This document shows, piece after piece, positions 1-63,242 of a stretch of DNA of 64,000 nt. Position 1 is the stretch's first letter. Each line of letters begins with the position of its first letter. The notes beneath the pieces were generated by a model, which saw nothing but the letters and a program-made list of their open reading frames with translations, ran no database searches and had not been told where the DNA came from. Source of the stretch: Glutamicibacter sp. JC586. GTDB lineage: Bacteria; Actinomycetota; Actinomycetes; Actinomycetales; Micrococcaceae. The DNA is taken from assembly GCF_009805585.1 (NCBI RefSeq), contig NZ_VHIN01000009.1, positions 186,001 to 250,000 of the forward strand, written 5' to 3'. The position numbers and the translations under genes were made by a program.

Positions 1-1370
1 AGCGCCTCAAACTTGCTGCGAACGAGATCGTCGCTAGCCTTGTCTTCCTTATTGGCCGCTTCAAGCAGCGAGTCGTCTAGGCCATCTTCGTCCTTGGAGC
101 CTTCACGGTCCAAGGCATGGTCGCGCTCAACTTCCATCTCGTTGGCCAGGGCCATCAAAATGGGCACCGAAGGAAGGAAGACGCTGGCAACTTCTCCGCG
201 TTTACGGCTACGCACGAAGCGTCCGACGGCCTGCGCGAAGAACAATGGGGTTGAGGTACTTGTGGCATATACGCCAACGCACAGACGCGGCACGTCCACG
301 CCTTCAGATACCATGCGCACCGCGACCATCCACCGTGAATCAGATTCCGAGAAGTCGTCAATTTTCTGCGAGGCTTTGGGATCATCAGAAAGAATGGTGG
401 TGACCTTTTCACCACAAATCGCTTCCAACTGAGCGGCATAGCCACGCGCGTCTTCATGATCGGTCGCGATGATCAAGCCGCCAGCATCCTTCACGGTACG
501 GCGAACTTCTGACAAGCGTCGATCAGCGGCTTGTAACACCGAAGGGATCCAGTCGCCGTGCGGGTCTAGCGCGGTGCGCCAGGCATGGGCGGTGATGTCT
601 TTGGTGAATCCTTCACCAAGGTTTGCTTCCATCTCTTCGCCGGCCGCGGTGCGCCAACGCATATTGCCCGAGTAAGCCATGAAGAGCACGGGACGAACCA
701 CATGGTCGGCCAGCGCGTTACCGTAGCCGTAGGTGTAGTCGGCTTTGGAACGTCGAATCCCGTCGCCTTCATCTACGTACTGAACGAAGGGAATCGGAGC
801 AGCGTCGGAACGGAACGGAGTACCGGTCAACGCCAGACGGCGTGCGGCAGGTTCAAAGGCTTCGCGAATGCCATCGCCCCAAGAAAGGGCATCACCTGCG
901 TGGTGAACCTCATCCATGATGACCAGGGTCCGACCGCCCTCGGTCTTGGCACGGTGTACCGCTGGCTTCAGCGATACTTGGGCATAGGTGACAACCACAC
1001 CCATGTAGTGCGAGCCGTGGCGCCCGTCAGAGTTCTTGTAGTTCGGATCCAAGGCAATGCCCACGCGTGCTGCCGCATCCGCCCACTGCTTTTTCAGGTG
1101 GTCGGTCGGTGCGACAACGATCATGCGGTTGATCTTGCCCGAGTCAATCAAAACCTTAGCAAGTCGCAGTGCGAAGGTGGTTTTACCTGCACCAGGGGTT
1201 GCCACTGCCATGAAGTCTTTGGGTTCAGTCTCAAAGTACTGGGCTAGGGCTTCTGCCTGCCACGCACGAAGCTTGGGGCCGGTGCCCCAGGCAGTACGTT
1301 CCGGATACGCTAAAGGGAGTTTGTCTTCCAGTGGAAGCTTGTCACCAAAGTCAAAAAGTGTCTCGGTCAT
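1..1370 (-). CDS. DEAD/DEAH-box helicase (superfamily 2), C-terminus cut by the window edge
   Basis: Reading leftwards from an ATG at 1370, about 456 codons are open to the window edge, so the C-terminus is missing. Residues 57-65 give a Walker A motif (ATPGAGKTT), residues 153-156 give DEVH, and the RecA2 half has a motif VI-like QAVGRFVRSR preceded by SEGVDVPR. This is an SF2 ATP-dependent nucleic acid translocase related to the helicase part of type III restriction/UvrB-like enzymes. In actinobacteria this protein is usually stand-alone with no methylase partner, and none is seen here. It is followed upstream by the DUF3039 gene on the same strand. The substrate is unknown; a DNA repair role is only inference. 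Confidence 0.85.
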   Translation of the reverse strand, partial: MTETLFDFGDKLPLEDKLPLAYPERTAWGTGPKLRAWQAEALAQYFETEPKDFMAVATPGAGKTTFALRLAKVLIDSGKINRMIVVAPTDHLKKQWADAAARVGIALDPNYKNSDGRHGSHYMGVVVTYAQVSLKPAVHRAKTEGGRTLVIMDEVHHAGDALSWGDGIREAFEPAARRLALTGTPFRSDAAPIPFVQYVDEGDGIRRSKADYTYGYGNALADHVVRPVLFMAYSGNMRWRTAAGEEMEANLGEGFTKDITAHAWRTALDPHGDWIPSVLQAADRRLSEVRRTVKDAGGLIIATDHEDARGYAAQLEAICGEKVTTILSDDPKASQKIDDFSESDSRWMVAVRMVSEGVDVPRLCVGVYATSTSTPLFFAQAVGRFVRSRKRGEVASVFLPSVPILMALANEMEVERDHALDREGSKDEDGLDDSLLEAANKEDKASDDLVRSKFEA

Positions 1371-1425
1371 ATACCTTTTCCCGGCCGCGTGCTGTGTGTG
1401 AAGTAGTGCTAATAAATCTTGGGCA

Positions 1426-1677
1426 CTACCCCATCAAGGATTCGTAAACTTCCTTGCACTCAGGGCATACCGGGAATTTCTTGGGGTCTCGGCCCGGAGT
1501 CCAGACCTTGCCACACAACGCGATCACTGGTTCACCGGACAGCGCCGATTCCATGATCTTTTCCTTCTGGACGTAGTGCGCAAAACGCTCATGATCCCCG
1601 GCCTCGACACTCTGGGTTGTCTCGGTACGTTCGATCGTTGCTGTGCCGCCACGGGTTTCTTCAGACTGTTCCACCAT
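1426..1677 (-). CDS. DUF3039 domain protein, small zinc-ribbon-like
   Basis: The gene encodes an 83-residue protein. The C-terminal half carries the hallmark of the actinobacterial DUF3039 family (HERFAHYVQKEKIMESAL, then CGKVWTPGRDPKKFPVCPEC). The cysteines (one in ALCGK, then CPEC) suggest a small metal-binding knuckle. I chose the ATG at 1677 rather than the longer reading to 1806. A TAGACT hexamer lies 7 nt before it, the pattern of a leaderless actinobacterial gene, and the extra 43 residues look like non-coding sequence. The function is unknown. It lies 55 bp upstream of the helicase gene and could be co-transcribed with it. Confidence 0.85.
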   Translation of the reverse strand: MVEQSEETRGGTATIERTETTQSVEAGDHERFAHYVQKEKIMESALSGEPVIALCGKVWTPGRDPKKFPVCPECKEVYESLMG

Positions 1678-14908: not shown

Positions 14909-16546
14909 TCAGCGCTTCTGCTTGACGATCTGTTCCTGGTCAACGGACTCGGCGTTCAGAGCGTCATGCTCCTCGTGGCCAGCGGCAACCAGCTGGTCGC
15001 TGCCTGCACCGAAGAAGCCAGCCTTGAAGTCGGTGATACCGGACTTCATAGCTTCCAGGGTCTCGTTCTCCAACTTGCCGGTCTGGCCGATAACGGTCAG
15101 CACGTCGGTGCGGTGACGCAGGTAGTCAATGAACTCAGCTTCGAAACGGCGTACGTCCTCAACTGGAACATCGTCCAGGTAACCGTTGGTGCCGGCCCAG
15201 ATCGAAACGACCTGATCCTCAACGGCGTAAGGGGTGTACTGACCCTGCTTAAGCAGTTCCATCAGGCGTGCACCACGGGTCAGCTGCTGCTTGGAAGCGG
15301 CATCCAGATCCGAAGCGAACATGGCGAATGCCTGCATGTCGCGGTACTGAGCCAATTCAAGCTTCAAAGTACCGGAGACCTTCTTCATTGCCTTGACCTG
15401 TGCCGAACCACCAACGCGGGATACCGAGATACCCACGTCGACAGCTGGACGCTGGTTAGCGTTGAACAGGTCCGACTGCAAGAAGATCTGACCGTCGGTG
15501 ATCGAGATCACGTTGGTCGGGATGAACGCGCCCACGTCGTTTGCCTTGGTTTCGATGATTGGAAGACCAGTCATCGAACCTGCACCCAGCTCGTCGGACA
15601 GCTTGGCACAACGCTCAAGCAGACGGGAGTGTAGGTAGAAAACGTCGCCCGGGTATGCTTCGCGTCCTGGTGGACGGCGCAGCAACAGCGACACGGCGCG
15701 GTAAGCTTCAGCCTGCTTGGACAGATCATCAAAGACGATCAGTACGTGCTTGCCACCGTACATCCAGTGCTGGCCGATGGCCGAGCCTGCGTATGGTGCG
15801 AGGTACTTGAAGCCCGCTGGATCAGATGCTGGGGAAGCCACGATGGTGGTGTATTCCAGGGCACCCTGCTCTTCGAGGGTCTGGCGTACGGCAGCGATGG
15901 TCGATGCCTTCTGGCCGATTGCCACGTAGATGCAACGAACCTGCTTGGTTTCATCACCGGTTGCCCAGTTATCGCGCTGGTTCAAGATGGTGTCAACCGC
16001 GATCGCGGTCTTACCGGTCTGGCGGTCACCAATGATCAGCTGACGCTGGCCACGGCCGATCGGGATCATGGCGTCGATAGCCTTCAGACCGGTCTGCATT
16101 GGTTCGTGAACGCTCTTGCGCTGGGTAACGCCTGGTGCCTGAAGTTCCAGTGCACGACGTCCCTCGGCCTCGATTGGGCCAAGGTTATCCAGTGGTTCAC
16201 CCAGTGGGTCAACAACGCGACCTAGGTAACCGTCGCCGACTGGAACCGAAAGGATCTCGCCGGTGCGCTCTACCTTCTGGCCGTCTTCGATGCCGGTGAA
16301 GTCACCAAGCACAACGACACCGATTTCACGGGTATCGAGGTTCTGGGCCAGGCCCAGGGTGCCATCTTCGAACTTCAGCAACTCGTTGGCCATGACGGAA
16401 GGAAGACCTTCCACCTTGGCGATGCCGTCGCTCGCGGCGACGACGCGTCCCACCTCGGTGCGCTCTGCCTTACCCGGTTCGTAGGAAGATGCGAACTCGT
16501 TTAGGGCATTGCGGACGTCGTTGGCATTGATGGTCAAATCGGCCAT
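14909..16546 (-). CDS. atpA: ATP synthase F1 alpha subunit
   Basis: The protein has 545 residues from the ATG at 16546 ([15 protein letters not shown]). A longer reading to 16585 adds 13 residues that are not family-like. The non-catalytic nucleotide site P-loop GDRQTGKT is at residues 173-180, and the arginine-finger region is [11 protein letters not shown]. The C-terminus has an extension (about residues 510-545, rich in acidic and His residues) typical of actinobacterial alpha, which in Mycobacterium acts to suppress ATP hydrolysis. That extension may compensate for the short epsilon. It is preceded by a 123-bp spacer with two hairpins. Confidence 0.97.
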
Positions 16547-16572
16547 CTGCAGTCCCTGCTCTCCTAAATTGT

Positions 16573-16597
16573 GATCCACCCTCAAGAACGGTGGATC
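16573..16597 (-). other. Hairpin in atpH-atpA spacer (proximal to atpA)
   Basis: An 8-bp perfect stem (GATCCACC / GGTGGATC) with a 9-nt loop ends 26 nt upstream of the atpA start. Confidence 0.55.
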
Positions 16598-16640
16598 GAT
16601 GTGAATGAAGTCTGTGTTGGTCCCGGAAAGCCGGAACCTC

Positions 16641-16663
16641 TGCCAGGAGTTAGCCTCCTGGCA
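16641..16663 (-). other. Hairpin in atpH-atpA spacer (just after atpH)
   Basis: A 9-bp perfect stem (TGCCAGGAG / CTCCTGGCA) with a 5-nt loop lies 6 bp past the atpH stop, without a U-tract. It could protect the 3' end of an atpBEFH segment or reduce read-through. Confidence 0.6.
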
Positions 16664-16669
16664 AAAGTT

Positions 16670-33207: not shown

Positions 33208-33362
33208 CCGGTAATAACTTTGCTTTAAGGGCATTCATGACTCCCCGAAGACTGTGAGACTTTCTTGTTCTGGTGACTTTTGCAACACATCAGCGACCGT
33301 AATCGCCAATTGCGCAGATCAACGCACCACCTGATAGTATTTTTTCTGTTGCTCAGCAACCC

Positions 33363-33438
33363 GCCTCTGTAGCTCAGTGGATAGAGCGTCTGCCTCCGGA
33401 GCAGAAGGTCGAAGGTTCGATTCCTTTCAGGGGCACCA
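33363..33438 (+). tRNA. tRNA-Arg (anticodon CCG)
   Basis: A full cloverleaf can be drawn. The acceptor stem is GCCTCTG/CAGGGGC (one T-G pair), the D stem GCTC/GAGC, and the anticodon stem TCTGC/GCAGA with loop CTCCGGA, so the anticodon is CCG and reads CGG. The T stem is GAAGG/CCTTT. The discriminator A is at 33435 and a CCA is encoded at 33436-33438. A terminator follows directly. It lies near argS, the enzyme that charges it, but on the opposite strand. Confidence 0.95.
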
Positions 33439-33440
33439 GC

Positions 33441-33479
33441 AAATTGCAGGATCTGGTTTTCCAGACCTGCAATTTTTTT
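33441..33479 (+). terminator. Rho-independent terminator of tRNA-Arg
   Basis: A stem of about 15 bp (AAATTGCAGG.TCTGG / CCAGACCTGCAATTT, one bulge) with a TTTT loop is followed by a run of T. Confidence 0.9.
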
Positions 33480-33537
33480 ATGTCCCCTCGCGTAGCGTCA
33501 CTAACCTGGACAAGCATCCAAGTGATTATCTTGGATC

Positions 33538-59896: not shown

Positions 59897-60550
59897 TTAT
59901 TTCGCTCCTCCATCAGCTTTCGCGGCGCTCTTGGCGCGAGCTGAGCTGGAAATTCCACGCTCTGCCGCGTAATCAGCCAGCAGTTCCCTCAAATTCTTAC
60001 GTCCACGGTGCAACCGTGACATGACGGTGCCGATCGGCACACCCAGAATGTCGCTGGCTTCCTTGTAGCTGAAACCTTCAACATCGACGAAGTACACGGC
60101 CATCCGGAAATCTTCGCCGATGGACTGTAGCGCGGCCTTCACATCCGAGTCCGGTAGGTGATCCAGCGCCTCCACCTCAGCGGAGCGCAAACCCGTAGGT
60201 GAATGTTCCATGGCTGAAGCCATCTGCCAGTCCTCAACCGTATCGGTGCTGGTACGCAACGGCTCACGCTGGCGCTTGCGATACAGGTTGATATAGGTGT
60301 TTGTTAGGATTCGGTACAGCCAAGCCTTGAGGTTGGTCCCTGGCTTGTACTGGTGGAAGGCCGAGTACGCCTTGGTATACGCCTCCTGCACCAGATCTTC
60401 AGCATCGCTAGGATTACGAGCCATGCGCAGGGCAGCCGAATACAGCTGGTCCACGTACACCATGGCATCGCGCTCAAATCGTTCGCGACGCTGTACCTCG
60501 GACTCAGTGGCCACATCGGGCAAATTCTCGTCCACACTCTTGTTGTTCAT
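59897..60550 (-). CDS. sigR: ECF sigma factor SigR/SigH (thiol stress)
   Basis: The protein has 217 residues. Region 2 includes [23 protein letters not shown] and [19 protein letters not shown]; region 4 includes [30 protein letters not shown]. It directs the disulfide/thiol-oxidation regulon (thioredoxins, mycothiol genes) and is held by RsrA encoded downstream. The main start is the ATG at 60550, preceded by TAGACT. A longer in-frame form can start at the GTG at 60688, just after a SigR-type promoter at 60698-60724, as with Streptomyces sigma-R'. That form would add 46 residues. Confidence 0.95.
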
Positions 60551-60558
60551 CACGCCTG

Positions 60559-60564
60559 AGTCTA
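60559..60564 (-). promoter_or_regulatory. -10 element for the short SigR form
   Basis: TAGACT on the minus strand ends 8 nt before the ATG at 60550. No ribosome site is seen, so a leaderless housekeeping transcript is likely. Confidence 0.5.
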
Positions 60565-60697
60565 CGCGGTTACCGGTGTTATTGCGCGAATTCGGGCGCG
60601 ACCGGCTCACTGTGCGGGGTCCACGAGGTTCCGGATCCACCACGCAGGTGGTGCCGCTGGCTGTTGAAGTATCCTGTCTGATCGTCACACTAGGTAC

Positions 60698-60724
60698 AAC
60701 CACAAGGTCTAAAACCTTATTCCC
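60698..60724 (-). promoter_or_regulatory. SigR-dependent (autoregulatory) promoter of sigR
   Basis: On the minus strand GGGAAT, an 18-nt spacer and GTTG match the known SigR/SigH consensus GGGAAT-N18-GTT. The predicted start lies about 7-10 nt downstream, at or near the GTG at 60688. Confidence 0.75.
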
Positions 60725-60749
60725 CCAGAGATCTCGGCTAAGATTTAAC

Positions 60750-60755
60750 TAAAAT
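60750..60755 (+). promoter_or_regulatory. Candidate -10 element of aroA
   Basis: TAAAAT lies 22 bp before the proposed ATC start at 60778, leaving a leader that includes AAGGA (60767-60771). Confidence 0.45.
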
Positions 60756-60777
60756 CGCACGAGCCTAAGGATCAGCA

Positions 60778-62151
60778 ATCAACACCGCAAGCGCCTCTGG
60801 AAGCCAGCACACGCAACCGCACACGAACATCGAGAACTGGTGGCCCGCACCATTTACCGGCGCACCGGTTCACGCGACCGTAAACGTGCCGGCCTCCAAG
60901 TCGCTCACCAATCGCTATCTGATCCTTGCGGCACTGGCCAGCTCCCCGTCGACCATCCACAACACGCTGATCAGTCGGGATACCGAGCTGATGCTCGCTG
61001 CCTTGGAAACCTTTGGCGTGGGCATCAAACGCACCGAACAGCCCGATGGATCCACCACCGTTGTGATCACTCCTGCCGATCAGCTCAACCAGGCGCAGCC
61101 TGATGGATCGGCCCTGCGTATCGAGTGTGGCTTGGCTGGCACCGTGATGCGCTTTGTTCCCCCGTTAGCTGCCGTCGCCAAGGCTCGGGTCCACTTTGAT
61201 GGCGATCCGGCCGCCCGACTGCGTCCCATGGCCCCGGTTCTTGATGGGCTAGGTGCCCTGGGCGCAACATTCGATTACCCACAAGCCAAGGGCATGCTGC
61301 CCTTCACCATCGATGCCAGTGACGTGCGCGTATCGGATACGGTCATCGTTGACGCCTCAGGTAGCTCCCAATTCGTTTCGGCACTGCTGCTGGCCGGGCA
61401 TGCACTACCGGGCGGACTTCGTCTTCGTGCGGCTGACGGTCCGGTGGCCTCCCCCGATCACATCATGATGACCGTGCAGACCTTACGTGAGATGGGCGTG
61501 GAAATTAGTGTGGACGCCGATTCTCGCGGATGGCGGATCTCTGAGGGCAGCATCGATGGCTTTACCGTAACGGTTGAGCCGGATCTATCCAACGCCGGAC
61601 CATTTTTGGCGGCCGCACTAGCCAGCAATGGTAGCGTCGGCATTCGATTCTGGCCACAACAGACCACCCAAGTCGGCGGCAAGTGGGTGCAAATCCTCAA
61701 GAGTATGGGCGCAGAGGTTGAACACGGAGCCGATTCGGTGCTCACGGTGCGCGGCACCGGGAAGATCAAGGGCATCACCTACGCCGATGCTTCGGAACTA
61801 GCGCCAACTTTGGCGGCCCTGTGCGTTTTGGCTGACTCGCCAAGTAAGCTCACCGGCATCGGCCACCTGCGTGGACACGAAACCGACCGACTGGCGGCGC
61901 TAGAAACCGAGCTGCCCAAGGTCGGGGCCACGGTGAAGGCCACCGAGGACACACTTGAAATCATCCCGGGTTCCTTACACGCCGCCGATCTGCACAGCTA
62001 CGAAGATCACCGCATGGCCACCGCCGGCGCCTTGCTGGGCCTGGCCGTCGACGGGATTCGAGTCGAAAACATTGCCACCACTGCCAAAACCATGCCCCAA
62101 TTCCCCCAACTCTGGGCGCAGATGGTCGACACTTCTAAGGACCGTGGTTAA
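60778..62151 (+). CDS. aroA: EPSP synthase (3-phosphoshikimate 1-carboxyvinyltransferase), non-canonical start
   Basis: The protein has 457 residues if begun at an ATC at 60778. The conserved EPSPS N-terminus is ENWWPAPFTGAPVHATVNV, then PASKSLTNRYLILAALA; the phosphate loop is CGLAGTVMRFVPP and the end RMATAGALLGLAVDG. The only ordinary in-frame start is a GTG at 60886, which would remove the first strand; upstream of it no ATG, GTG, TTG or CTG occurs before the stop at 60766. The ATC has AAGGA 6 nt upstream. It makes EPSP in the shikimate pathway. Its stop overlaps the rsgA start by 1 bp. Confidence 0.9.
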   Translation: MNTASASGSQHTQPHTNIENWWPAPFTGAPVHATVNVPASKSLTNRYLILAALASSPSTIHNTLISRDTELMLAALETFGVGIKRTEQPDGSTTVVITPADQLNQAQPDGSALRIECGLAGTVMRFVPPLAAVAKARVHFDGDPAARLRPMAPVLDGLGALGATFDYPQAKGMLPFTIDASDVRVSDTVIVDASGSSQFVSALLLAGHALPGGLRLRAADGPVASPDHIMMTVQTLREMGVEISVDADSRGWRISEGSIDGFTVTVEPDLSNAGPFLAAALASNGSVGIRFWPQQTTQVGGKWVQILKSMGAEVEHGADSVLTVRGTGKIKGITYADASELAPTLAALCVLADSPSKLTGIGHLRGHETDRLAALETELPKVGATVKATEDTLEIIPGSLHAADLHSYEDHRMATAGALLGLAVDGIRVENIATTAKTMPQFPQLWAQMVDTSKDRG

Positions 62152-63242
62152 TGCACTACTCAGACTACGACGAATCCTCGGTTCGCGTTCGCCCCAATAA
62201 GCGTGGCTCGCGTCCGCGCACCAAGGATCGCCCGGCCTACGACAAGGCGGTTATCGGCCGCATCATTACCGTGGACCGTGGCAGGTATACCGCGATCCTC
62301 GATGAGGATACTGCCAACGAACGCATCGTCATCGCCGCCCGAGCCCGCGAGCTGCGTCGTCAGGCGATTGTGCCCGGAGACTTGGTCGCGCTGGTCGGCG
62401 ATACTACCGGCAAACCAGATACCTTGGCCCGGCTCGTGCGTATCGAAGAACGCACGACCCTGTTAAGACGCAGCGCCGACGACACCGACGCGACCGAACG
62501 AGTTGTGGTGGCCAACGTCGACAAACTGGTGATCGTGGTGGCCGCGGCCAATCCCGAGCCGCGCACCGGCTTCGTTGACCGTGCGTTGGTCGCTGCCTTC
62601 GACGCGGGAATCCAGCCGATCTTGTGCGTGACTAAGGCCGATGTGAAGGATCCGGCCGAGTTCCTCGAACACTATGAGGGGCTGGACTTCCCCGTGGTCA
62701 TCTCCCGCACTACCACCGAAGAAGCCTCGGGTGTTGACGCACGAGGTGCCGATGGCTCTAGCGCTAGGCTCGATGCGAACGCCCTGGCCGAACTTGAGCA
62801 GTTACTCGGCGGATGTGTTTCGGTGGTTCTGGGCCATTCAGGGGTCGGGAAATCTACCTTGGTCAACGCGCTGACCGGGGCAACACGCGCCACCGGGCAC
62901 GTCAATGCGGTGACCGGACGCGGACGGCACACCTCTTCGAACGCCCTAGCGCTACGCCTAGGACAGGTACCAGGATCGTGGCTCATCGACACCCCCGGAA
63001 TTCGTTCCTTCGGCCTGGGCCTGGTCGATCCGGATAATATTCTGGCTGCCTTCGAGGATCTGGCACAGATCGCCACCGCATGCCCGCGCGGTTGCACCCA
63101 TGCGGCGGCAGAGGCTGGTTGTGCACTAGAAGCCTGGGCCAAGGATGCCGAGGGTAGCCAACCGGCAAATCGTTTGGCCTCCTACCGCCGGCTAGTGACT
63201 ACCGAGGAAACCACGCACGAAAAGGAGCTCGGCGCACTGTAG
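62151..63242 (+). CDS. rsgA: Ribosome small subunit-dependent GTPase A
   Basis: The protein has 363 residues. An OB fold (VIGRIITVDRGRYTAILDED) comes first. The circularly permuted GTPase domain follows, with G4 (CVTKAD) before G1 (GHSGVGKSTLVNAL) and G3 (DTPGIRSFGL). The C-terminal zinc domain is CPRGCTHAAAEAGCAL. It acts late in 30S assembly. It is translationally coupled to aroA, an order common in Micrococcaceae, and hisN follows after 15 bp. Confidence 0.95.
   Translation: MHYSDYDESSVRVRPNKRGSRPRTKDRPAYDKAVIGRIITVDRGRYTAILDEDTANERIVIAARARELRRQAIVPGDLVALVGDTTGKPDTLARLVRIEERTTLLRRSADDTDATERVVVANVDKLVIVVAAANPEPRTGFVDRALVAAFDAGIQPILCVTKADVKDPAEFLEHYEGLDFPVVISRTTTEEASGVDARGADGSSARLDANALAELEQLLGGCVSVVLGHSGVGKSTLVNALTGATRATGHVNAVTGRGRHTSSNALALRLGQVPGSWLIDTPGIRSFGLGLVDPDNILAAFEDLAQIATACPRGCTHAAAEAGCALEAWAKDAEGSQPANRLASYRRLVTTEETTHEKELGAL

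Follow-up and report, generated by a model that had tools for sequence, protein, structure and literature searches.

A conserved AUC or AUU codon as the probable translation start of aroA in Glutamicibacter

The window analysed here is a stretch of 64,000 nts from one contig (NZ_VHIN01000009.1) of Glutamicibacter sp. JC586. Close to its end, the gene aroA, encoding the EPSP synthase, an essential enzyme of the aromatic amino-acid pathway, extends on the forward strand from 60778 to 62151 and comprises 457 sense codons when it is read from an ATC at 60778, the stop TAA occupying 62149-62151. Downstream lies rsgA (62151-63242, forward strand), the ATG of which overlaps the aroA stop (TAATG, 62149-62153), and upstream lies the divergent gene sigH (59897-60550, reverse strand; TIGR02947), encoding a SigR-type ECF sigma factor. 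In a profile search, the AroA protein read from 60778 scored 356.3 bits against the NCBIfam aroA equivalog TIGR01356 (cut-off 287.25), with residues 34-450 aligned on positions 2-413 of a profile of 415, which places it in this family as a whole enzyme. Each of the 18 genomes of the genus contains exactly one strong EPSP synthase match, the second match being weak (23-26% identity, E-values from 2e-7 to 1e-5) and probably MurA. With a single strong match per genome, the gene at 60778 should be the working aroA.

The aroA frame is closed upstream by a TAA at 60766-60768, after which the sequence reads GGA TCA GCA and then ATC (60778-60780), the proposed start codon. The preceding stop in the same frame is found at 60739, and no ATG, GTG or TTG stands between the two stops. 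The original prediction, which placed the start of aroA at this ATC, held that no ATG, GTG, TTG or CTG separates the stop at 60766 from a GTG at 60886, that the conserved N-terminal segment of EPSP synthases lies upstream of this GTG and that an AAGGA precedes the ATC by 6 nts. These readings were confirmed in the aroA frame: the GTG at 60886-60888 (Val37) is the first ordinary in-frame start and the only codon of these four kinds between the stop at 60766 and the PASKS motif, the conserved segment (WPAP) precedes it, and the Shine-Dalgarno-like AAGGA occupies 60767-60771. Two in-frame ATC codons are present upstream of the PASKS motif, at 60778 and 60829.

The comparison with close relatives that had been suggested as a test of the ATC covered 17 further genomes of the genus, each with an aroA. 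It yielded ATC or ATT at the same place in 16 of them (ATC in 12, ATT in four), in support of the predicted start. With the genome of the window included, frame reading and DNA alignment gave ATC in 13 of 18 genomes, ATT in four (L012, L013, L015 and L018), neither in one and ATG in none, L032 being excluded from the counts as the same contig stretch as L006, together with ten relatives from other genera (L033-L042). Such retention of ATC or ATT, in 17 of the 18 genomes, exceeds what chance would give. The one genome with neither, L019, has no ATH at this position, GTG and ATG being present instead. Within the 45 codons upstream of the PxSK motif, and no farther downstream than the conserved W, the 13 ATC genomes contain no ATG, GTG or TTG; the remaining five genomes (the four with ATT and L019) contain one or two in that stretch. 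For 10 of the 13, no ordinary start is found all the way back to the in-frame stop, while one or two ordinary codons stand far upstream in the open aroA frame of L011, L014 and L017. The reading of the start is less certain in the four ATT genomes, in which an in-frame GTG follows the ATT by 9 nts (i.e., three codons); the two codons together are perhaps a transitional or dual start.

A GGA core is found 6, 7 or 8 nts before the ATC or ATT in all 17 genomes that carry one of these codons. This spacer varies by 1 or 2 nts, while behind the codon, where the distance to the PxSK motif is 111, 105 or 87 nts, length changes only in multiples of three. The frame is thus preserved only downstream of the ATC or ATT, close to which the coding region probably begins. 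The pairing of the site with the anti-Shine-Dalgarno tail was computed at -4.8 to -6.4 kcal/mol in the 17 genomes. In some of the species, other in-frame codons equal or surpass it: L009 and L011 have a CTG that pairs at -6.6 and -6.5 (spacing 11), L004-L007 a GTG (codon 27) with values of -4.9 to -5.6 at a spacing of 10-11, and L005 and L007 an ATC with -5.7, located at -12. In the four ATT genomes, the GTG that follows the ATT reaches -4.5, but at a spacing of 11. Because the better-pairing rival codons are not common to the ATC genomes, it is conservation and not pairing that singles out the ATC at 60778.

The substitution pattern was examined in the seven genomes out of 18 that align without gaps. 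Variable sites at the first, second and third codon positions numbered 10, 11 and 13 in codons 2-20, 8, 6 and 12 in codons 21-37, and 33, 27 and 62 in codons 38-120. As codons 2-20 show no third-position excess, the evidence that this tail is coding rests on frame-keeping and conservation, not on synonymous change. In the seven nearest genomes, the nucleotides from -30 to about codon 8 (window 60748-60801) are more conserved than those of codons 12-23, a conservation that could have another cause. From the start to the W motif, stops occur in none of the 17 genomes in the aroA frame, in six in the second frame and in one in the third, numbers too small to discriminate between the frames.

In the family, aroA was found in all 100 genomes (32 genera) sampled evenly from a larger group. 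Outside the genus, which accounts for 95 of these genomes, 85 loci covering all 31 other genera were read, those left unread being G029, G057, G059, G060, G065, G082, G088, G096, G103 and G104. At all 85 the open frame contains an ordinary start; in 83 an ATG, GTG or TTG lies at most 45 codons from PxSK and no farther downstream than the W, and in L073 and L125 the ordinary start lies farther up. A simple Shine-Dalgarno-like match precedes such a codon in 54 of the 85 loci, so that the ordinary codon need not be the start in every case. In each of the ten relatives L033-L042, an ATG precedes the region of the W or C-like motif. Within the sampled family, an ATC or ATT start without ordinary alternative thus appears in a single genus. 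In a tree of AroA proteins, the 18 rows of the genus form one group (100/100), the base of which is unresolved, so that the tree does not order the ATC, ATT and ordinary starts.

As a control, 53 syntenic ORF pairs of the window and G014 were compared for how deep in the frame the first ordinary start lies, a comparison that gives first-start depth only because the alignments ran into conserved untranslated DNA. The deepest first start in both genomes belongs to window 33228-33497 (codons 47 and 54), followed by aroA (40 and 40) and by window 3-1433 (22 and 19). The deepest case, on the reverse strand, is antisense to a tRNA-Arg gene (33363-33438, forward strand) and is a likely false gene call. 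At window 14912-16669, encoding a protein of the F1 ATP synthase alpha/beta family, the first ordinary start is codon 29 in one genome and codon 5 in the other, and an ATG at codon 42 precedes the first Pfam domain, which begins at residue 72.

AUC and AUU starts elsewhere belong to proteins that are kept scarce and under the control of translation factors. In E. coli, pcnB has an AUU start that is thought to keep its enzyme scarce; it shares the rare AUH start with aroA but is a different gene. In Glutamicibacter, the codon at the start position of infC is ATC in all 18 genomes (loci L128-L145, which lie outside the window, L139 being that of the window's own genome). The sequence reads (AGGAG)-TAG-CAC-ATC-AGC in 17 of them, the stop being located a few codons farther up in L128, and in all 18 no ATG, GTG or TTG precedes the RVPEVRL motif, the V of which is encoded by GTG in 16. 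From this position, and from the statement that infC starts with ATC in Streptomyces and with ATT in E. coli (PMC5472188), we infer that infC of the genus starts at the ATC. The likeness to aroA lies in an AUH start placed behind a good ribosome site and conserved across species. However, infC controls itself, whereas aroA is a metabolic gene with no known role in translation.

Other genes offer further parallels. Of 34 Streptomyces species, 32 are stated to have GTC at the start of sigR and two GTT, and IF3 is stated to repress the GTC start (PMC5472188). This genus-wide non-canonical start, with its alternation of GTC and GTT, parallels the ATC and ATT of aroA, but concerns another gene and another codon; the SigR-type sigH, which is the divergent neighbour of aroA in the window, seems to start with ATG. 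Six conserved genes of Listeria are described as starting invariably at non-canonical codons; confirmation is claimed for two of them, infC (ATT) and, by experiment, rnhC (ATC), and a reporter gave the ranking ATG > ATA > ATT (PMC13068326). The rnhC of L. monocytogenes is, like aroA, a conserved gene other than infC with a fixed ATC start, but it is a different gene from another phylum (PMC13068326). In vitro, IF3 is reported to disfavour start-codon pairs that are weak at the third base, including AUU with the CAU anticodon (PMC10158994).

The best explanation is that aroA is translated from a conserved AUC or AUU codon, at which initiation would be weak and repressed by IF3, with AroA kept low and following the ratio of IF3 to 30S subunits (probability of about 0.85). 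The GGA site would hold 30S subunits on the aroA mRNA, where they would initiate at the AUC or AUU with initiator tRNA, presumably giving formyl-Met as the first residue. IF3 would then reject most of these complexes, such that AroA would be made at a low rate, and synthesis would be expected to rise when IF3 is short. On the precedents of infC and sigR, the aroA start is probably repressed by IF3, and its IF3 dependence is made more likely by the ATC at the infC start position in all 18 of these genomes. Restraining the enzyme may be what the weak codon is for. The proposed start is of a known kind and is unusual for the gene carrying it. Apart from infC, few genes have a well-supported AUC or AUU start, and annotation programs restricted to ATG, GTG and TTG will truncate such genes or place their starts wrongly. 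In a central metabolic enzyme and genus-wide, such a start would extend the genes likely to be discriminated by IF3 to the shikimate pathway. In the open-access literature, no paper was found that brings together Glutamicibacter and aroA, nor one that joins aroA with an AUC or AUU start codon and infC; two papers that combine aroA or EPSP synthase with Arthrobacter and an initiation codon concern glyphosate, judging by their titles.

It is conceivable, if rather doubtful, that the AUC start serves no regulation and that drift fixed a weak codon, for which the ribosome site compensates. Drift would agree with the restriction of the ATC or ATT start to one genus within the sampled family. However, the codon is kept in 17 of 18 species even though ATC is a single base change away from ATG, and AUG starts are stated to be favoured by selection in prokaryotes (PMC5622118). 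According to the same source, switches from AUG to AUU are very rare, a survey of 36 genome triplets having yielded one case from 61,358 ancestral AUG starts (PMC5622118). The genus offers a natural series (ATC; ATT plus GTG; ordinary start) for testing the cost and the use of weak starts.

The junction with rsgA suggests another, improbable reading, in which the AUC start of aroA would act as a sensor of ribosome quality with feedback via rsgA, in parallel to infC. IF3-poor or immature 30S subunits would initiate more readily at the aroA AUC, and the overlap of the aroA stop with the rsgA start would pass the extra initiation on, raising the level of the 30S-maturation GTPase RsgA. If true, this would tie the supply of aromatic amino acids to translation capacity. 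RsgA is described as acting late in 30S maturation and as keeping initiation factors off the subunit (PMC10486304). In all 17 ATC or ATT genomes, the final A of the aroA stop is also the A of the rsgA ATG (TAATG or TGATG), the junction being ATGA in L019. Among 25 loci of other genera the junction varies, and the same overlap is found in L049, L064 and L066; the overlap is thus not peculiar to the genus. Translation of rsgA is possibly coupled to the aroA AUC start, and the data allow the speculation that this start serves the control of RsgA.

Translation could also begin at an ordinary downstream codon, either GTG 60886 or, in some species, a GTG near the WW motif, giving a shorter enzyme, which is very unlikely. 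The solved chain 7m0o aligns from its residue 2 to AroA residue 35, i.e., it begins near the place of Val37, which indicates that short EPSP synthases exist; the GTG at codon 27 in L004-L007 and the GTG three codons after the ATT in the four ATT genomes also speak for a downstream start. Yet GTG 60886 pairs only weakly with the ribosome-site tail in the window (-2.2 at spacing 11), its homologue is missing in the ATC genome L014 as well as in L013 and L018, and no downstream GTG is common to all 13 ATC genomes. The protein argues in the same direction. The solved structure 2o0b, the EPSP synthase of M. tuberculosis, can be aligned from residue 3 of its chain onwards and has WPAP at residues 4-7, and the W, A and P of the WxAP segment are invariant in 16 aligned sequences. 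An AlphaFold model of the AroA read from the ATC, built with 10 sequences, has a mean pLDDT of 86.1, with a low-confidence tail at residues 1-18 (pLDDT under 50) and with two strands (residues 21-23 and 32-35) that precede GTG 60886. Translation from GTG 60886 (residue 37) would leave out the WPAP segment and both modelled strands, and this GTG is an unlikely start of aroA.

There is little chance that another codon, such as ATC 60829, serves as the start, or that the ribosome enters from an upstream frame by frameshifting or stop readthrough. ATC 60829 stands in the aroA frame but was rejected, since it lacks a ribosome site and no other genome of the genus has it at the same place. Against an upstream frame, no ordinary start lies between the in-frame stops at 60739 and 60766, and the upstream spacer differs in length by 1 or 2 nts among the genomes. 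A sequencing error hiding a true ATG, named in the original prediction as the main alternative, would take a single base change in a draft genome of 26 contigs, but is refuted by the relatives, none of the 17 having ATG there against 12 with ATC and four with ATT, and three of the ATC genomes (G004, G007 and G015) being one-contig assemblies.

In addition to the start codon, the original prediction pointed to a TAAAAT behind which the ATC would lie as a -10-like element. This TAAAAT (60750-60755) is found in only two of the 18 genomes of the genus (L002 and L003), with TAAAAC in five more, and was set aside as the aroA promoter box. The conserved box is instead TAAGAT at 60739-60744 on the forward strand, present as TAAGAT, TAGGAT or TAGAAT in 17 of the 18 genomes, and it may represent the promoter -10 of aroA. 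On the other strand, the start of sigH is likely the ATG at 60550, judging from conservation. The sequence CGCGTAGACTC (window 60558-60568, reverse strand) is located exactly 7 nts before this ATG in 17 of 18 genomes, its last base differing in L019. The region upstream of sigH shows little sign of a ribosome site, and CGCGTAGACTC is possibly the -10 box of a leaderless transcript. Farther upstream of sigH, GGAAT-N18-GTT (window 60698-60723, reverse strand) resembles a SigR/SigH-type promoter. The -35 of this candidate sigH promoter overlaps the region in which the -35 of aroA is expected.
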